Source: Saccharofermentans sp. (GTDB taxonomy: Bacteria; Bacillota; Clostridia; Saccharofermentanales; Saccharofermentanaceae). From it: 64,000 bases of DNA. A model generated the notes under the pieces. That model had not been told where the DNA came from. It made no database searches and worked only from the letters and a program-made list of their open reading frames with translations. A program made the position numbers and the translations under genes. The stretch lies in assembly GCA_024685385.1 (NCBI GenBank), contig JAIKVV010000052.1:1-64000 (forward strand), written 5' to 3'. The stretch's first letter is position 1. Every line of letters starts with the position of its first letter. Below are positions 6,262 through 19,064 of the stretch, in pieces.

Positions 6262-7035
6262 TCAAAGAGCGGCATAACCCATGTAAAGCGTTCTCATGTT
6301 CTCTTCGTTCATGATGTATGTATTATCATGCCTTGCGCCTTCAAAGACCTTATTGCCGTCCTTATACACGAACAGCTGATTACGGGAGATCTCCTCCCAG
6401 GGTCCTGTCGTCAGCGGGCGGGTCGAGAAGATCACGGAGCCCTTCTTTTCGAGCTTAAAGAGCGTGCCCTCTTCGTTCTTATGGATATAGAAATATTCGC
6501 CGTCGAAGATCACGAGATTGATCTTATTATGGGGCGACAGTTCCTGCACGATCTCATCCATCAGCCAAAAGCGAATGGCCGGATCTCCGGAGCCGTCGTT
6601 TTCGCGGTAAAGGGAATTCATGCGGTCAACGATATAAAGAAGTATCCTCTCGCTGTCTGTCGTTCCCTTCTGCAGGCACTGGTAGTGCTTGAGTTCTTCT
6701 GATTCGAATATAGTGCCGTTATGCATCAGGGTCCAGTTTCTGCCTGAATCGTCTTTGGCCGTGAAGGGATGGGTGTTGTTGAAGTTGACGTCACCCACCG
6801 TTGCGCGCCTGATGTGGGCCATCATGCGGGAAGATCTGATCTCATCAGTCAGGCGGTGCTTAAGGTAGTAACTGTCCTTGGCTCTCACAGGCTCTTTTTC
6901 GACCGATATGTTGCCTTCGTCGAAAAATGCCAGGCCCCATCCGTTCGGGTGCTCCGAACTGTGATCGAAAAAGTTCTTAAGGAACCAATTAAGCTCGATA
7001 TTATGGTCAGATGTAACTGCGAACAGTTCGCACAT
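6262..7035 (-). CDS. Class II glutamine amidotransferase family protein (YafJ/EgtC-like)
   Basis: N-terminal MCELFAVTS catalytic Cys, NGWGLAFF, HIRRATVGDVNFNNTHPF, LMHNGTIFES motifs. Start placed at MCEL. Confidence 0.8.
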   Translation of the reverse strand: MCELFAVTSDHNIELNWFLKNFFDHSSEHPNGWGLAFFDEGNISVEKEPVRAKDSYYLKHRLTDEIRSSRMMAHIRRATVGDVNFNNTHPFTAKDDSGRNWTLMHNGTIFESEELKHYQCLQKGTTDSERILLYIVDRMNSLYRENDGSGDPAIRFWLMDEIVQELSPHNKINLVIFDGEYFYIHKNEEGTLFKLEKKGSVIFSTRPLTTGPWEEISRNQLFVYKDGNKVFEGARHDNTYIMNEENMRTLYMGYAAL

Positions 7036-8266
7036 GATCAAGATACTCCTTATCTTCTTCGGGAAGTGTCCTGCCTGCAAGTCTTATCAGGTATTCTCCC
7101 CATTCTTCCGCCTTCTTGCCACCATATATTTCTGCATGCAGGCCGTCTCTTTCGATCTTCTCCACCGCTTCCTGAATCTCATCTGCTGTCTTGATGTCTG
7201 AAAGTGCTTCATCCAGCAACTTAAGGTTCTCATCGGAATAGATAAGTCCCTTGATCAGGGCTACATAGCCCAAAGCCTTGTTGATCGGCACTGCGTCAGC
7301 GACCCTGATCTCGATGTATTTCTTCACTCTGAAGTGGAAAAAGCCCATTGACATGAAGTGCTCAATAAGTCTTTTCCTGCGCTCTTCCGTAAGGTCCTCT
7401 TCCCTGAGGATACCTTCATCGAAGAGGTCTTTGGCGCTCTTGCCTGCAACATAAGATGTTTCGCCTTCGTCCGTAAGCAGGATAAGGGGCGTGTTGTAGA
7501 TGACATCAGCCATTTTATCGTAGCCGAACCCTTCTTCCAGCGAATAAGGCACGAAGCCTGTCCTTGAAGGGTCCAGATCGTCCCACTCCTGGATCCTGAG
7601 AAGGTGCTTCTTATCTTCGTGGCCGGGCAGGTAAGAAAGCTCATCCGTCTTGTTTTCCATAAGGATCATGAGGATAGGAGAGATCTTGGATAAGACGCGG
7701 AGCTTTCTTACCATGTCTTCCTCGTTTTTGTAATCGACCGAGATCTGGGCAGAGCCTGATGCTCTCATCATGTATCTGCCGTATTTGCCGGACTCCTGAA
7801 AGTACTTATCCATGTACTCATACCTCTTCTTTGGCGACAGGGGAATATCGTCAGGCGTTATCTCTCCCGTCTCGACTTTTGGGAGATTGCCCGCGGTTAT
7901 CAGACGGTATCCTCTCATTGCGAATATCAGGCTCCAGTTGCTGAAGAATGTATCGTAGACTCTCCTGATGGAAGCCGTATCGTGGAAAGGATTGATGCTG
8001 ATCTCGAACTGGCAGGAAGGCTCAAGGCTTATGGAATGGTCTTCCGTCACATAACCAACCGGATAGCCGTCCATATAGGTAATCTCGGCCTTAAGATATT
8101 TTCCGACATCGTAGATCAGTTTGGATATCTCATGGAATCCGATCTGATCGCCGTTGGAATCGACTACAAAATGCTCGATCTCAAGACCCAGATCCTTCGA
8201 ATCCGTCTCACCGCTCCTAAGATATTCTCTTATCTCATCTCTTATACTCATCTCTTTATCCTCCAT
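7007..8266 (-). CDS. Glutamate-cysteine ligase family protein
   Basis: LGLEIEHFVVD, YMDGYPVGYVTEDHSISLEPSCQFEISINP, RASGSAQISVDY, EIRVADAVP motifs of GCS2-type ligases. Confidence 0.8.
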   Translation of the reverse strand: MEDKEMSIRDEIREYLRSGETDSKDLGLEIEHFVVDSNGDQIGFHEISKLIYDVGKYLKAEITYMDGYPVGYVTEDHSISLEPSCQFEISINPFHDTASIRRVYDTFFSNWSLIFAMRGYRLITAGNLPKVETGEITPDDIPLSPKKRYEYMDKYFQESGKYGRYMMRASGSAQISVDYKNEEDMVRKLRVLSKISPILMILMENKTDELSYLPGHEDKKHLLRIQEWDDLDPSRTGFVPYSLEEGFGYDKMADVIYNTPLILLTDEGETSYVAGKSAKDLFDEGILREEDLTEERRKRLIEHFMSMGFFHFRVKKYIEIRVADAVPINKALGYVALIKGLIYSDENLKLLDEALSDIKTADEIQEAVEKIERDGLHAEIYGGKKAEEWGEYLIRLAGRTLPEEDKEYLDHVRTVRSYI

Positions 8267-11316: not shown

Positions 11317-12420
11317 ATGTCAGATAAAAAGCAGAACAAGAGCGATAAGAAGGACTCCAAGGCGAAGAAGATCTTGAACAAGATCTTTATCGACGGCTTG
11401 TCCGGTATGGCAACCGGCCTTTTCGCCACCCTCATCATCGGAACGATCATCGGTACGATCGGCGGTTACATCCCCGCTCCTGTCGGAACTTATGTCACTC
11501 TCGTAGGCAAGATGTGCCAGTGCCTGATGGGCGCGGGCATCGGTCTGGGCGTCGCGATCAAGTTCAAGGAGAGCCCGCTCGTTACGATCTCCGCTGCTGT
11601 ATGCGGCATGATCGGATCTTATGCCAAGGTATTTACCGCCGCAGCTCCCCTGCTTCAGGAAGGCAAGGTGCTCCTCCCCTCTCCCGGTGAGCCTCTGGGG
11701 GCTTTCATAGCAGCTCTGATCGGCATCACTCTGGGACATTTGGTTTCAGGCAAGACCAAGGTCGACATCATCGTAACGCCTCTCGTCACGATCGCGACCG
11801 GCGGCGCTGCAGGCATCTTCCTGGGACCTTATGTATCGGCTTTCATGACATGGCTCGGCAGCCTCGTTAACTGGGGAACCGAACAGCAGCCTCTCCTCAT
11901 GGGCATCATCGTATCCGTATTGATGGGTATCTTCCTTACCCTCCCCATATCTTCTGCCGCGATCGGCGTTGCTTTGGGACTTAACGGGATCACAGCCGGT
12001 GCAGCCACGATCGGATGCTGCTGCAACATGATCGGATTCGCCGTCATCTCCTACCGCGAAAACAAGGTCAACGGCCTCGTCGCACAGGGTCTCGGAACTT
12101 CCATGCTCCAGATGCCCAACATCATCAGAAACCCCAGGATCTGGCTGCCCTCGATCATATCGAGCGCAATCTTGGGACCCATATCGACATGCGTGCTTCA
12201 GATGACATCCAACGCCGTAGGTTCAGGTATGGGAACCGCAGGTCTCGTAGGACCTATATCGACATTCACGACCATGATCGAGACAACTCCCGCATGGATC
12301 GTAATCATAGAGATCGTTGTCATGTACTTCATCCTCCCTGCTGCAATCAGCCTGGGTCTTTCGGAGATCATGCGCAAGATCGGCTGGATAAAAGCGGGCG
12401 ACATGAAGCTCGACGACTGA
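11317..12420 (+). CDS. PTS_EIIC_2-type membrane protein
   Basis: IFIDGLSGMATGLFATLIIGTIIGTIGGYI, Gly/Ala-rich polytopic membrane protein resembling PTS EIIC type 2. Confidence 0.7.
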   Translation: MSDKKQNKSDKKDSKAKKILNKIFIDGLSGMATGLFATLIIGTIIGTIGGYIPAPVGTYVTLVGKMCQCLMGAGIGLGVAIKFKESPLVTISAAVCGMIGSYAKVFTAAAPLLQEGKVLLPSPGEPLGAFIAALIGITLGHLVSGKTKVDIIVTPLVTIATGGAAGIFLGPYVSAFMTWLGSLVNWGTEQQPLLMGIIVSVLMGIFLTLPISSAAIGVALGLNGITAGAATIGCCCNMIGFAVISYRENKVNGLVAQGLGTSMLQMPNIIRNPRIWLPSIISSAILGPISTCVLQMTSNAVGSGMGTAGLVGPISTFTTMIETTPAWIVIIEIVVMYFILPAAISLGLSEIMRKIGWIKAGDMKLDD

Positions 12421-12464
12421 TATCGGAATATATCAGACTATTGTAAGGGAAAAGAGGAATAGAT

Positions 12465-14423
12465 ATGGCTACAGGAGCCGAAGAATATGCAAAGGCGAGG
12501 AAACTCGCCGTAAAAGAACAGCATAAGGCGTTGAGCCAGGGCCGACACCCCTACCTCCACGCTCTTGACGATATGCTCACCAGCAGGACAACTCTTTCGG
12601 AAGAATCGGTGGGCACGCGTGAGATACCTCTCCCGCAGGTTGTCGGAACAGTGACCCGCGGAAGGCAGGAATCTTTCGCCAGGAACTTTATGCCCTTGTT
12701 AGGGCCTGATACTGAGTTTGCGGCCAAGTGGATCAGCTTGATCGAGTATCAGATGGAAGAGGGGATCAGCGATGCCATCAAGGTAATCGAGTTCATGGGC
12801 AAGTTCTACGTACTGGAGGGCAACAAGCGTGTGTCCGTCTTAAAGTACCTGGAACAGCCCACGATCCTCGCAACCGTAACGCGTGTCCTGCCCCCGGAAT
12901 CAGACGATCCGGAAGTTGTCATCTACTATGAATTTTTGAAGTTCTTCAAGTGCACGGGCATCTACAACATGCTCTTCACCAATGTGGGATCTTACGACAA
13001 GCTCGCGGAATGCTTAGGGCTTACATACGACGAGCCCTGGGACGATGACATCGTACTGGACTTAAAGTCCGCATTCCTCAACTTCACCAAGGCATACGAA
13101 GCAGGCGGCGGCAAGGCATTCTCCTCCATCACGGCGGCGGACGCTTTCCTCGTATATATCGAATCCTATAAATACGAGAGCCTCGTAAACACGCCCGCTG
13201 ACGAGATCAAGAAGAACTTGGGACCCATCTGGCCCGAGTTCAGGATCCTTGCAAACGGCAGTCAGATCACATTCTCCGAGGAGCCCCAGCTCCACAAGAA
13301 GAGCACGATACCGATACTGGATACCATTTTCGATAAGCCTGCTTATAATGAGCAGCACCCGCTCAAGGTCGGATTCCTTTACGACGGCTTCAAGGACAAG
13401 TCGCGCTGGATCAACGGTCACGAGATGGGCAGAGCTTATCTTGAGAGCGTATATCCCGGAGTCGTAAACACTTTCGCTCTTGAAGGCATCAGCGACGAAG
13501 AGGAGTTCGACGAGGCAGTCGAGAAGGCTGCAGCCGCAGGGACCGAGCTGATCTTCACGACTTCGCCGATCCAGATGGAGCCTGCGCTCCGCGCGGCGGT
13601 AAAGCACCCCGAGATCAAGTTCATGAACTGTTCGGTGCACTTTTCGCACGGGGCGGTCAGGACTTATTACGGAAGGATGTACGAAGCCAAGTTCATGCTG
13701 GGAATCGTTGCCGCAAGCCTTGCAAAAGACCACAGGATCGCTTATGTTTCGACCTATCCGATCTGCGGCAACATCGCCAACATCAACGCTTTCGCGATCG
13801 GCGCATCGCTCGTAGACCCCCAGGCAAAGATCCATCTTACCTGGTCCTGCCTGAAGGACGAATACTGGCGTGAATATGTGCGCGAAAACAATTTCCACAT
13901 CGTATCCGGACCTGACCTCATCAAGCCGGTCCGCGCCGACAACGAGTACGGTCTCTATGCCATAGGCGACAACGGTCAGGTAACGAACATCGCTTTCGCC
14001 GAGTGGAAGTGGGGCAAATACTATGAGCTCATCGTCAAGGCGATCCTGAACAACGCCTGGAACGCCGAGGCTGACGATGCCAAGGATTCGGCCCTTAACT
14101 ACTGGTGGGGCATGACTTCGGGAGTAATAGACATCAATCTGTGCAACGATAACATCCCCTACAGCACGAGGAAGATGATCGAGGGCTTGAGGCGCTGCAT
14201 CACGGCTGATACGATCAATCCTTTCGAAGGTGAACTCAGGAGTCAGACATCTGTTATTAAAGAAGCTGACTCACCACGGTTATCAAACTCGGATATAATC
14301 AATATGAATTGGCTCAACGACAACATCGAGGGCACCATCCCGTCGTTCGAAGAACTGACGGAGAAAGCCCAGATGACAGTCAAGGCCAACGGAATACCGC
14401 TCTTAACGGAAAGTGAAAGATAA
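12465..14423 (+). CDS. BMP-type substrate-binding protein with N-terminal ParB-like segment
   Basis: C-terminal half: KVGFLYDGFKDKSRWINGHEMGRAYLES, MNCSVHFSHGAVRTYYGRMYEAKFMLGIVA (BMP/Med-like); N-terminal GKFYVLEGNKRVSVLKYL (ParB-like). No signal peptide. Confidence 0.7.
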   Translation: MATGAEEYAKARKLAVKEQHKALSQGRHPYLHALDDMLTSRTTLSEESVGTREIPLPQVVGTVTRGRQESFARNFMPLLGPDTEFAAKWISLIEYQMEEGISDAIKVIEFMGKFYVLEGNKRVSVLKYLEQPTILATVTRVLPPESDDPEVVIYYEFLKFFKCTGIYNMLFTNVGSYDKLAECLGLTYDEPWDDDIVLDLKSAFLNFTKAYEAGGGKAFSSITAADAFLVYIESYKYESLVNTPADEIKKNLGPIWPEFRILANGSQITFSEEPQLHKKSTIPILDTIFDKPAYNEQHPLKVGFLYDGFKDKSRWINGHEMGRAYLESVYPGVVNTFALEGISDEEEFDEAVEKAAAAGTELIFTTSPIQMEPALRAAVKHPEIKFMNCSVHFSHGAVRTYYGRMYEAKFMLGIVAASLAKDHRIAYVSTYPICGNIANINAFAIGASLVDPQAKIHLTWSCLKDEYWREYVRENNFHIVSGPDLIKPVRADNEYGLYAIGDNGQVTNIAFAEWKWGKYYELIVKAILNNAWNAEADDAKDSALNYWWGMTSGVIDINLCNDNIPYSTRKMIEGLRRCITADTINPFEGELRSQTSVIKEADSPRLSNSDIINMNWLNDNIEGTIPSFEELTEKAQMTVKANGIPLLTESER

Positions 14424-15028
14424 TGAAAGTCCTGATAGTCGCCGACATCGAAGATAAGCGCTTATACGATTTCTACCGCAAGGAACGCACCGAGGGTGTC
14501 GAATTGATCGTAGCATGCGGCGACCTGAAACCGGACTATCTGGATTTCCTTATCACAATGGTCAACGTGCCCACCATCTATGTGCGCGGCAACCATGACG
14601 ACAGATATATCAAGGACCCTGTCTGGGGTGCGGAATGCATCGAAGACAGGGTCTTTAAGTTCAAAGGCTACACCTTCGCAGGGCTCGGCGGTTCCATGCG
14701 CTACAACCCCGACGGTCAGAATATGTACAGCGAAAAGGAGATGCGCTGGCGCGCAGCCAAGCTCGCCCCCAGGATCCGTCTTGCAGGGGGTCTCGACGTG
14801 CTCGTCACCCACGCGCCCGCCAAGGATCACGGCGACTTGGAAGACCTCCCTCACAGAGGCTTTGACACCTTCAACCGCATGATGGAAAAATATAAGCCCG
14901 CCTACATGTTCCACGGCCATGTCCATGCAAATTACGCCCGCAATGTCCAAGCGCAGACCACCCACGAATCAGGCACATTGATCTGCAACGCATACGGCTA
15001 TCAGATAATAGAACTTCCCGACAGATAA
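14423..15028 (+). CDS. Metallophosphoesterase
   Basis: VIVADIED...ACGDLKPDYL...VRGNHDD...VTHAP...HGHVH motifs; start overlaps upstream stop. Confidence 0.8.
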   Translation: MKVLIVADIEDKRLYDFYRKERTEGVELIVACGDLKPDYLDFLITMVNVPTIYVRGNHDDRYIKDPVWGAECIEDRVFKFKGYTFAGLGGSMRYNPDGQNMYSEKEMRWRAAKLAPRIRLAGGLDVLVTHAPAKDHGDLEDLPHRGFDTFNRMMEKYKPAYMFHGHVHANYARNVQAQTTHESGTLICNAYGYQIIELPDR

Positions 15029-15029
15029 T

Positions 15030-18000
15030 ATGGCACATCTTACACCGGCACAAAAGAGCATATCGGATCTTGCGGAATTCTATAAAGACAGCGGGATAGA
15101 TACGCTCTGCGGCGCCGTCCTCTTCGATGAAAAACTCGATAAGGATCTTGTGACAAAGGCAGTAAGACATCTTCTTTCCAAGCACGAAAATTTCAATCTC
15201 CGCTTCACGCGTGAAGACGGCAGGATCGTTCAGAATGTGGTAGTGTCTGAAGATATTCAGGTCCCGCACAAGTCCTTCGACAGCATTGAAGAACTCCGTG
15301 AATACTGCAATAAAGATGCCCGTATTCCCTTCGGCTGCGACGGATCTGTCATGTACCGCATAATGACATTCGATCTTCCTTCAAGATCAGGCATAATGCT
15401 GAGCGCAAGCCACCTCATAGCCGATGCCTGGACCTACAGCCTGATCGTAAAGTATTTCTACGACAGCTATAACGCGCTCAAGAACGGTCTGCCGCTCGAT
15501 ATGTCCGCAGGCAGATACAGCGACTATATCTTAAAGTCAGATGAATATCTTGCTTCGGATTCATATCTTAAGGACAAGGAATTCTGGGAAGCTGAATATT
15601 CGGGCGGCATAAGCCCTTCTTCCCTCGGCAGGACCATTAATGAGAGCGGCATTGAATCAGCAAGATACATAACCGGCATCTCAGAGGAACTCTCGCAGGC
15701 AGCGGTAAGATTTGCAGTCGAAAACAAAAGTACCATCGCTGTTCTTTTCGAGACTGCGATATTGATATATCTCGACAGGATAAACGGCGAGGAAGGTCCC
15801 GTCACGATCGGCGTTCCGATATCCGGAAGAGGAAATGCGGAAGAAAAGAAAACAGCCGGCATGATCATCTCCACGATCCCTTTGACTGCTGCGGTCGAAG
15901 GCAGCATGAGCGTCATTTCTTTATGCCGGAAGGTAAGTTCCAAACACCGCGAGATCTTCCGCCACAGAAGACTTCCCTACGAAGACATAATCCGCGCGGC
16001 AAGACAGAATTCCGCGGGTCTCATGAGGCTCTATAACGTCATCGTGAGCTGCCAGAATTCAAGGACCGACGTGCCTTCCGTCACAGAGTGGTTTTCGGGC
16101 GGGCATTCGGAAGTGCCTCTTGCGATCCATATCGACGACCGCGACAGCAATGGCAATTACAAGATAACCATCGATCATCAGACCGGGATCTATAGCCCCG
16201 AAGAAGCAGCTCTCACCGCGGAGAGGATCAAGCACATAATCAGGCAGATGGTATCCGATAAGGACCTTATGGTAAAAGACATATCGATCCTGCCTCCTTC
16301 GGAAAAGGAGCTGATCCTGGATGGATTCAATCAGACCGCAGCAGATTACCGCAAGGATTCATGCGTGCAGGAGATGTTTTCCGAGAAAGTCATCTCTAAT
16401 CCCGACGGCATTGCGATAAGTTTTGCAGGCAAAGATCATACATTCGCCAACATCGATATGATGTCTGATACTCTTGCTTCTTCACTTATCGACAAAGGAG
16501 CAGGCCCCGGCAATATTGTTCCGATAATCGCATCAAGGAGTCATCTCGTGATAATCTCCATGCTCGCTGTTCTTAAGACCGGTGCAGCTTACATGCCCGT
16601 ATCCCCCGACTATCCGGAGTCCAGGATAAGCTACATGACTGATGCCGTAACGACATCCTGCGTGCTTACATCCGGATACGACTATGAAGGTGATAATGTC
16701 ATTGATCTTGATACTTTCGACTTCGATAAAAAAAGCGAAAAGGTTCTCTTCAGAAACTCCCCCGCTGACCTTTGTTATGTGGTCTTCACTTCAGGTTCCA
16801 CAGGCAAGCCCAAGGCGGTCGGCATCACGCATAAGAACGTTCTTAACTACTGCGCCTGCAATCAGTTCAATGTCGCAGGCGGAATAATAAAAGGATCTGA
16901 CAGGAAGATACTGTCAGTTACAAATATCGTTTTCGATATCTTCGTAACGGAAAGCATCCTAGCTCTCCTTAACGGCATTCAGATCGTAATGGCATCAGAC
17001 GATGATGTCTTCTCCGGCAAAGCCCTAGCATCGCTCATAAGATCTTCCGGCGCAAACATCATCCAGACGACGCCAACCAAGATGAAAAGCTATCTGCTCG
17101 ATAAGGAATTTGCTTCATGTCTTAAGTCGATCGGCACCGTGATCCTGGGCGGCGAAGAATTCCCCGAATCTCTTGCCGGGATAATCGCCTCAAAGACCGG
17201 CGCATCCATATATAACATATACGGTCCTGCCGAGACCACCGTATGGTCTTCTTATTCTTCTGTCGGCAAGGGCGACATCACGATAGGAAAACCCGTTGCA
17301 AACACTTCGATCTATATATTGGACGGATCTTCTGCCCCCTGCCCCGTCGGCATCACGGGCGGGATCTTCATATCAGGCGACGGCGTCGGCCCGGGCTATA
17401 TCAACAACCCGGAACTTAGTTCAGAGCGCTTCGTTCCCGATCCTTGGCACGAAGGTCAGATCATGTATGAGACCGGCGATCTCGGCTACTTCCTCCCTGA
17501 CGGAAGGATCAGGTTCTGCGGGCGCCGTGACGGTCAGATCAAACTCCGCGGGCTTAGGATCGAATTGGGCGAGATCGAGCATGCCATGACCGACATCACG
17601 GGCATCGATCTTGCTGCAGCCGTCTTAAGAAAAGACGATTCAGGCAATCCCTATCTCATCGGATTTTATACTTCCTCCATCCCGGTCTTGGAGCAGGACA
17701 TCCGCACGATCCTCCTTGGAAAACTCCCTTCTTACATGGTTCCCAACAGGATAATCCCGATCGAAAAGATGCCTCTCACCGCGAGCGGCAAGATCGAAAG
17801 GAAGAGCCTGCCGGAAGTTACTGTCATCACTGATTCCGCCAATGAATATGTTGCCCCCGGAAACGATACGGAGAAGGTCCTGTGCGAACTGTTTGCGAAG
17901 GTCTTGAAGCGCAACAGGACAGGCTGCGAAGACGACTTTTTCGAATCGGGCGGCGACAGTTTTGCAGCGATGGAACTGGTCGCTCTGGCATCCGAAAAAG

Positions 18001-18743
18001 GTCTTGAGTTCGGCGTCAGATCGATCTACGAATGCCGCAGCGTAAGAAAGCTTGCGGCAAGCATTGGATCAGTTCCTGCAGCCGAGGAAGCACCATCCTT
18101 AGATCACTCGGCCTTCCCCCTCGAAAGGACCCCGCGGGACCTCCGCTTCTTCCGCCGCTTCGCGTCTTTCTCCCGCAGACATTACAGGCTTAATGTCAAG
18201 TTTGAATCTGACGTAGACTTTAACGGGCGCTTCATCATCTGCCCCGATCACGAGACCATGTTAGACCCCCTCTGGGTCTGGGCCGCCCTTGAAGATAAGA
18301 TCGACATCAACGACTGCGCCGCCATCGGTGCCGCAGAGTTCCTGGATAAGAAACTTTCATCATCGATCTTCAGGCTGATCGGCGGCATTCCCGTCGACAG
18401 GACCGGCGACTTCCTCCCTGCTCTTACCCGCGCTGAAGAAGTGATCTTGAAAGAAAAGAAATACCTCCTGATCCACCCCGAAGGCACCCGCTCCAGAACA
18501 GGTGAATTGAGCGAGTTCAAGATAGGCGCAGGCATTATCGCAGCCAACACGGGAATCCCCGTGATCCCGGTCTCCTTGCACGGCGCAGGCGGGATCTTTC
18601 CGGTCGGTACCAAGAGGCCAAAGCTTTTCGCGCCTAAAGATCATCCCCTCACGATCCGCTTCGGCAGCCCTGTTGTTCCCGAAGGCAAGTCACCGGAAGA
18701 AATAATGGCAGAAGTCAGAGAGCAGATCGTGTCCCTGCGATAA
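15030..18743 (+). CDS. Single-module NRPS (C-A-T) fused to C-terminal PlsC-type 1-acylglycerol-3-phosphate acyltransferase domain
   Basis: Condensation-like SASHLIADAW; adenylation VVFTSGSTGKPKAVGITHKN, YGPAETTVW, GRRDGQIKLRGLRIELGEIE, TASGKIERK; carrier DDFFESGGDSFAAMEL; PlsC DHETMLDPLW, IHPEGTRSRTGEL. Confidence 0.85.
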   Translation: MAHLTPAQKSISDLAEFYKDSGIDTLCGAVLFDEKLDKDLVTKAVRHLLSKHENFNLRFTREDGRIVQNVVVSEDIQVPHKSFDSIEELREYCNKDARIPFGCDGSVMYRIMTFDLPSRSGIMLSASHLIADAWTYSLIVKYFYDSYNALKNGLPLDMSAGRYSDYILKSDEYLASDSYLKDKEFWEAEYSGGISPSSLGRTINESGIESARYITGISEELSQAAVRFAVENKSTIAVLFETAILIYLDRINGEEGPVTIGVPISGRGNAEEKKTAGMIISTIPLTAAVEGSMSVISLCRKVSSKHREIFRHRRLPYEDIIRAARQNSAGLMRLYNVIVSCQNSRTDVPSVTEWFSGGHSEVPLAIHIDDRDSNGNYKITIDHQTGIYSPEEAALTAERIKHIIRQMVSDKDLMVKDISILPPSEKELILDGFNQTAADYRKDSCVQEMFSEKVISNPDGIAISFAGKDHTFANIDMMSDTLASSLIDKGAGPGNIVPIIASRSHLVIISMLAVLKTGAAYMPVSPDYPESRISYMTDAVTTSCVLTSGYDYEGDNVIDLDTFDFDKKSEKVLFRNSPADLCYVVFTSGSTGKPKAVGITHKNVLNYCACNQFNVAGGIIKGSDRKILSVTNIVFDIFVTESILALLNGIQIVMASDDDVFSGKALASLIRSSGANIIQTTPTKMKSYLLDKEFASCLKSIGTVILGGEEFPESLAGIIASKTGASIYNIYGPAETTVWSSYSSVGKGDITIGKPVANTSIYILDGSSAPCPVGITGGIFISGDGVGPGYINNPELSSERFVPDPWHEGQIMYETGDLGYFLPDGRIRFCGRRDGQIKLRGLRIELGEIEHAMTDITGIDLAAAVLRKDDSGNPYLIGFYTSSIPVLEQDIRTILLGKLPSYMVPNRIIPIEKMPLTASGKIERKSLPEVTVITDSANEYVAPGNDTEKVLCELFAKVLKRNRTGCEDDFFESGGDSFAAMELVALASEKGLEFGVRSIYECRSVRKLAASIGSVPAAEEAPSLDHSAFPLERTPRDLRFFRRFASFSRRHYRLNVKFESDVDFNGRFIICPDHETMLDPLWVWAALEDKIDINDCAAIGAAEFLDKKLSSSIFRLIGGIPVDRTGDFLPALTRAEEVILKEKKYLLIHPEGTRSRTGELSEFKIGAGIIAANTGIPVIPVSLHGAGGIFPVGTKRPKLFAPKDHPLTIRFGSPVVPEGKSPEEIMAEVREQIVSLR

Positions 18744-18750
18744 AGTAGCC

Positions 18751-18958
18751 AAGCAAGTTGCTCTGTGTTATATCTCCGCTTCGCTCCGATATAACACATT
18801 TCTCGCAACCCTTGCAAGCAAGTTGCTCTGTTTTATATCTCCGCTTCGCTTCGATATAACACATTTCTCGCAACCCTTGCAAGCAAGTTGCTCTGTTTTA
18901 TATCTCCGCTTCGCTTCGATATAACACATTTCTCGCAACCCTTGCAAGCAAGTTGCTC
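18751..18958. repeat. 65-bp tandem repeat, three full copies plus 13-bp partial
   Basis: Unit AAGCAAGTTGCTCTGTtTTATATCTCCGCTTCGCTtCGATATAACACATTTCTCGCAACCCTTGC starts at 18751, 18816, 18881 and 18946 (partial); each holds the inverted repeat T(G/T)TTATATC...GATATAACA. Confidence 0.95.
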
Positions 18959-18988
18959 GAATATATGTTATAATCACGGTCGCGGCTT

Positions 18989-19064
18989 CGAGGTGTAGCG
19001 CAGTTGGTAGCGTACGTGCTTTGGGAGCATGGGGTCGCGGGTTCGAATCCTGTCACCTCGACCA
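18989..19064 (+). tRNA. tRNA-Pro (anticodon TGG)
   Basis: CGAGGTG...CACCTCG acceptor stem, anticodon loop CTTTGGGAG, GGTTCGAATCC T-arm, encoded CCA; TATAAT at 18969-18974. Confidence 0.93.
19040..19064 (+). repeat. attL core (25 bp)
   Basis: GGTTCGAATCCTGTCACCTCGACCA, identical to 54452-54476. Confidence 0.93.

Follow-up and report, generated by a model that had tools for sequence, protein, structure and literature searches.

A single-module nonribosomal peptide synthetase with a terminal PlsC domain in Saccharofermentans: a candidate route to N-acyl-aminoacyl phospholipids

Nonribosomal peptide synthetases (NRPSs) usually release their products through thioesterase (TE), reductase or condensation (C) domains. 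The window analysed here, a stretch of 64,000 nucleotides of Saccharofermentans sp. DNA, encodes an NRPS with an acyltransferase at its end, and the question that this locus raises is what such a protein makes and how it lets go of it. The initial annotation described a one-module NRPS lacking a thioesterase and carrying a C-terminal PlsC domain as the last member of a possible four-gene lipid/peptide operon, and Pfam agrees on the domains. The gene (hereafter, gene 4; 15030-18743, + strand), delimited by ORF calling, Pfam and its full-length relatives, encodes 1237 aa. Pfam matches are to Condensation (aa 2-430; 15033-16319, +), AMP-binding (aa 453-790, with the C-terminal part of the adenylation (A) domain reaching aa 921; 16386-17792, +), PP-binding (aa 950-1010; 17877-18059, +) and Acyltransferase PF01553 (aa 1054-1183, E 3.9e-22), the last lying within a PlsC (lysophospholipid acyltransferase) domain that spans aa 1026-1237 (18105-18740, +). 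The PP-binding region is also recognised as a carrier (T/PCP) domain by Foldseek matches to PCPs and by its GGDS motif, which contains the predicted phosphopantetheine site Ser977 (17958-17960, +). No thioesterase, reductase or NAD-binding domain was found in gene 4 by Pfam, and PlsC occupies the release position. The C-A-T-PlsC NRPS is the real finding of the locus, and its domain logic is well supported.

The C-A-T-PlsC protein was recovered in 10 of 115 genomes of the family searched with gene 4, the source genome included, with the copy in G074 interrupted by a contig end. A further copy (51% identity) is present in a MAG labelled 'uncultured Ruminococcus sp.' (CAMCRP010000052.1). The initial annotation had suggested looking for other NRPS-PlsC fusions, and 10 genomes besides the source genome carry one, nine of them complete and one truncated at a contig end. 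The full-length set (n = 10) comprises the source protein and excludes the G074 copy. The domain order is common to relatives at 43-54% identity. A T-PlsC profile search yielded no more C-A-T-PlsC proteins among 188 genomes of the order, 391 sampled from the class and 398 sampled from the phylum, and no sequence in a plasmid collection matched T-PlsC at 80% coverage. In the full-length proteins (10/10) the catalytic residues of the A domain are invariant, as are the C-domain H-x3-D, carrier GxDS, PlsC H-x4-D, motif II Arg and EGTR; the initial annotation had staked its lipid reading on the survival of the PlsC catalytic residues in homologues, and these are retained in every full-length member. 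In the one pair compared (L084/L085) the dN/dS values of the C, A, T and PlsC domains were 0.10, 0.18, 0.11 and 0.11, respectively, indicating purifying selection, and the similarity of these values suggests that PlsC is as constrained as the rest of the protein in that pair.

Which amino acid enters the module can be judged from the A-domain pocket. Code extraction returned DITQIGIVWK, exactly the string obtained by hand alignment in the initial annotation and, as stated there, close to glycine codes; across the family the code is DITQ[IMVA]G[IV]VWK. The pocket contains D235 and K517, the Asp/Lys pair typical of A domains that use amino acids, and the glycine-code positions D235, I236, Q278, G301 and W331 are retained. 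A pocket code can mislead, an example being the second module of LgrA, which activates glycine. The sole unusual position is 239 (T, versus L in Gly codes), and the other differences are at positions 299, 322 and 330, which vary among published Gly codes (PMC12283262). The Gly codes of DhbF and PAX are DILQVGLIWK (PMC4169593) and DILQIGLIWK (PMC10634486), respectively. From its code, the A domain would activate a small amino acid, most likely glycine.

The C domain carries the motif SHLIADAW (15408-15431, +), which had been called atypical. It genuinely is, but alignments show that the catalytic His128 and Asp132 are retained and that this is the normal form of its clade ([SCN]H..xD[AS]). In a C-domain tree whose references were loci gathered in this analysis rather than characterised starter C domains, a 100/98 branch set apart the 10 family sequences and 8 others in N-terminal position (one of which, L058, is the same protein as family member L090), with no internal C domains among them; 7 other N-terminal-position sequences fell across that branch from the family. 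The starter-position assignment draws on Pfam, this tree, VIA-align and an AlphaFold model (pTM 0.89), which is closest to known C domains, the starter C of RzmA with C8-CoA having a Z of ~41 among many ties. Tree and model are compatible with, and no proof of, a C domain that would act as a fatty-acyl starter. A dead C domain is ruled out, as the His and Asp are invariant and dN/dS is low in the pair compared.

These observations bear on a reading in which the C domain is non-acylating and glycine or another amino acid, still unacylated on the carrier, is passed by PlsC to a lipid hydroxyl, in the manner of D-Ala transfer by the Dlt system. Profile matching of the A domain does return DltA-type ligases, and a membrane acyltransferase that moves a carrier-bound aminoacyl group is known logic. 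However, a vestigial C domain would be expected to decay, so that the invariant His and Asp, along with a C-domain dN/dS (0.095, L084/L085 pair) below that of the other three domains, count against this reading, which we consider improbable.

The remaining domain, PlsC, would determine where the chain goes. It has the H-x4-D catalytic dyad in motif I (HETMLD; 18249-18266, +) and a motif III (EGTR; 18480-18491, +) predicted to bind phosphate or the acceptor. Its sole PDB sequence match is Thermotoga maritima PlsC (5KYM, E 8.4e-11), which is also the top Foldseek match; the two share the Hx4D and EGTR motifs and the fold, whereas the Thermotoga enzyme is a stand-alone LPA acyltransferase. Judging by its LPA-acyltransferase-like motifs, the acceptor would be of the lysophospholipid type. 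In a PlsC tree, fusion PlsCs were split from stand-alone PlsCs by a 98/99 branch, and the NRPS-type PlsCs formed a single group (100/97) whose nearest neighbor, with weak support (87/26), was one ligase-ACP-PlsC protein. Proteins of this latter kind (~850 aa) were found in five genomes (L214-L217 and L218) scattered over the family, class and phylum. Like gene 4, they have an A-type ligase, a carrier and PlsC in that order, and their PlsCs fall on the gene 4 side of the tree, but they are without a C domain and their A domain resembles acyl-CoA/acyl-ACP ligases, not amino-acid A domains. They apparently take fatty acid to phospholipid on a single protein, in which the acyl group on the carrier would naturally serve as PlsC donor, and so offer a precedent for the scheme proposed below. 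The grouping of the gene 4 PlsC with carrier-fused PlsCs suggests a carrier-bound chain as its donor. Enzymes of the PlsC family use acyl-ACP thioesters as donors, which makes a T-bound acyl-glycyl thioester a plausible one.

The tree also places the gene 4 PlsC across the 98/99 branch from the stand-alone enzymes, which disfavours a housekeeping PlsC fused by accident. A chance and non-productive fusion, with a stray housekeeping acyltransferase on an NRPS, would suit the patchy distribution of the gene and its decay in a close relative (described below). It is nevertheless highly improbable in the face of the same architecture in 10 full-length proteins, the separation of their PlsCs from housekeeping ones as a 100/97 group, the retention of all catalytic motifs, and a PlsC dN/dS of ~0.11.

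Taken together, we put at about even the chance that gene 4 encodes a single-module NRPS that makes a lipid on its own, with PlsC as the release domain of a four-step cycle. In this cycle, the A domain would activate a small amino acid, glycine being favoured, and attach it to the T domain; the starter-type C domain at the N terminus would take a fatty acyl chain from either acyl-CoA or acyl-ACP and N-acylate the glycine with it; the T domain would offer the N-acyl-glycyl-S-pantetheine to the fused PlsC, as acyl-ACP is offered to an ordinary PlsC; and PlsC would move the N-acyl-glycyl group to a lysophosphatidate- or lysophospholipid-type hydroxyl, releasing it without a thioesterase. This would yield a glycerophospholipid with an N-acyl-glycyl ester. 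The broader proposal, that an NRPS chain may be ended by a built-in PlsC that acylates a membrane lysophospholipid to give N-acyl-aminoacyl phospholipids, as a new mode of NRPS release, we hold a shade more tentatively, at just under an even chance. The transfer of an acyl or aminoacyl group to a lipid, as envisaged in the initial annotation, is supported by the single module, the glycine-like pocket and the intact PlsC, and is a prediction from sequence.

The main rival is a glycine-lipid synthase of the OlsB/OlsA kind, in which N-(3-hydroxyacyl)-glycine is built by the C-A-T module and then acylated on its 3-hydroxyl by PlsC to give an N-acyloxyacyl-glycine lipid, with release through hydrolysis or a separate enzyme. 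Known aminolipids are made by an N-acyltransferase and a PlsC-like O-acyltransferase (OlsA, SalA), combined in one protein in OlsF (PMC11631085). The source genome has no OlsB/GlsB-type N-acyltransferase (PF13444) at E ≤ 1, and the C domain could take that step; moreover, a fused PlsC whose task was to O-acylate a 3-hydroxyacyl chain would be expected to look much alike. Against this, gene 4 has no thioesterase or other release domain, and its PlsC groups with carrier-fused PlsCs, ligase-ACP-PlsC included. We regard this rival as unlikely. The ornithine and glycine lipid synthases (OlsB-OlsA, OlsF and GlsB-GlsA) resemble the scheme for gene 4 in pairing an N-acyl amino acid with an O-acyltransferase that is PlsC-like in OlsA and SalA (PMC11631085), but they use an OlsB-type N-acyltransferase and have neither a C-A-T module nor a carrier-bound amino acid.

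For phospholipid synthesis by gene 4, the T domain must carry phosphopantetheine. One PPTase domain was recognised in the source genome, in an LRAT-ACPS fusion within an ACP/ligase/PlsC cluster, and priming of the T domain would fall to this enzyme unless a further PPTase escaped recognition or is encoded in sequence absent from the 95%-complete assembly. The cluster (G000:C59, L081:6583-12642, - strand) contains the LRAT-PPTase fusion, an ACP, an AMP-ligase, two PlsC genes and an AMP-binding/PP-binding protein. The same genome has a second, contig-truncated NRPS (G000:C68, L078:8528-10972), which over 550 aa is 29% identical to the window NRPS.

The closest C-A-T sequences outside the family belong to gut Clostridia NRPSs of the form C-A-T-(C-A-T)-reductase, whose N-terminal C domain is of the same clade as that of gene 4. 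An Enterocloster bolteae MAG (L110; 40% identity) encodes C-A-T-C-A-T with the gene 4 pocket code present twice, and a Lachnospiraceae protein (L108) has 39% identity to gene 4. Both end in a reductase-like region, as read from a Rossmann motif in their sequences (GATGFLG/GVTGYLG), and by architecture they are probably of the ruminopeptin/pyrazinone type. Gene 4 differs in having one module followed by PlsC where these nearest C-A-T relatives have the reductase-like region, so that the release domain is the point of difference. The myxobacterial PUFA synthase Pfa3 is likewise a megasynthase with a terminal PlsC/AGPAT-type domain and a proposed release as phosphatidic acid (PMC8436480, PMC6731297), and its AGPAT domain has been reported to end the chain in that form (PMC8436480); unlike gene 4, it follows polyketide/fatty-acid chemistry, uses no amino acid and relies on carriers borne by another protein. 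A search of the open-access literature, of which coverage was partial, turned up no NRPS ending in PlsC, and a review of aminolipids makes no mention of nonribosomal synthesis (PMC11631085). Gene 4 is thus a set of known domains in a new order, likely with a new release mode.

If the release by PlsC is correct, NRPS chemistry and membrane lipid synthesis would be linked in a new way of placing amino acids in membrane lipids, and gut/rumen-type Clostridia would gain a one-gene route to amino-acid-containing phospholipids. Lipidomics may already detect such phospholipids without a known gene. The reading of gene 4 is directly testable, as one protein and a phosphopantetheinyl transferase should be enough.

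Whether the three upstream genes take part is a separate question. They encode a PTS EIIC-like membrane protein (gene 1; 11317-12420, +; PTS_EIIC_2 PF13303, E 3.5e-102), a BMP-family protein (gene 2; 12465-14423, +; Bmp PF02608, E 2.4e-14) and a calcineurin-like phosphoesterase (gene 3; 14423-15028, +; Metallophos_2, E 4.9e-11), all assigned by Pfam. The ParB-like N-terminus that had been assigned to gene 2 has no match in Pfam or the PDB. ORF calling reproduces the four collinear genes, all on the + strand, and the junctions 14423/14423 and 15028/15030, with 1 nt between the phosphoesterase stop and the NRPS ATG; both the collinearity and the junctions hold in this genome only. The evidence does not support the four-gene operon of the initial annotation as a functional unit, as the neighborhood is not conserved in relatives. 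The 115 family genomes were searched with gene 2 as well as gene 4, and in about a dozen of the loci fetched gene 3 comes directly after gene 2 and the NRPS is absent. Among these loci, gene 1 adjoins gene 2 only in L091 and L092, the closest relatives of the window, while genes 1-3 are missing from all other NRPS-PlsC loci. The gene 2-gene 3 locus and the NRPS-PlsC locus of G064 lie ~236 kb apart on the same contig.

The two closest relatives show what surrounds the NRPS position. The window NRPS is followed by a tRNA-Pro(TGG) (18989-19064, +) that bounds the locus. In L092, genes 1-3 are followed within ~0.1-0.2 kb of gene 3 by a tRNA-Pro that matches this one over 81 bases (97.5%), with no NRPS between. 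L091 aligns with the window to base 15094, ~65 bases into the NRPS, but the L091 sequence at this place gives no intact NRPS reading; the gene 4 search found no full NRPS-PlsC copy in that genome, and what L091 retains looks like a 5' stub left by decay of the NRPS. Its occurrence in few genomes (10/115) and apparent loss in close relatives indicate that the NRPS-PlsC gene is dispensable.

A functional operon, in which the products of genes 1-3 provide or process what the NRPS-PlsC protein uses as substrates, would be in keeping with the shared strand and 1-nt junction and with the NRPS 5' stub at the equivalent place in L091. Gene 2 and NRPS-PlsC also co-occur weakly (6/10 versus 26/105; Fisher p 0.027, uncorrected for relatedness), and HAD-type phosphatases are associated with two relatives, one fused (L086) and one overlapping (L102, NT5C-type). 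These two cases hint that the product may be dephosphorylated later. We nevertheless consider such an operon quite improbable, given the gene 2-gene 3 pairs without the NRPS, the absence of genes 1-3 from every other NRPS-PlsC locus and the arrangement in L092. Rather, the neighborhood evidence suggests that NRPS-PlsC is an independent cassette that here lies 3' of the gene 2-gene 3 pair. Genes 1-3 are probably mostly bystanders, and we do not judge genes 1 and 2 to be members of the system.

No neighboring gene is common to most of the NRPS-PlsC loci. A CAAX-protease-like gene is beside NRPS-PlsC in two (L084, and L085 with the same cluster), MatE transporters are near it in two (L083 and L087), and one downstream gene recurs in four. 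In L098 (3033-7331), with equivalents in L093, L099 and L101, the gene immediately 5' of the BMP-phosphoesterase pair encodes an AcrB-family transporter of ~1430 aa with an apparent coiled-coil-rich insertion (Pfam run on L098 only). In the window, near-identical tandem units of ~60 bp were seen by eye directly 3' of the NRPS-PlsC gene (18760-18970). Beyond the tRNA-Pro, phage-like genes lie at about 19298-50500 (- strand), including an NlpC/P60-SH3 protein and a weak Mu portal-like match, and this region is possibly a prophage sited at the tRNA. On the other side of the locus, a GCS2 glutamate-cysteine ligase-like gene adjoins a class-II glutamine amidotransferase (EgtC-like) gene (6262-8266, - strand).
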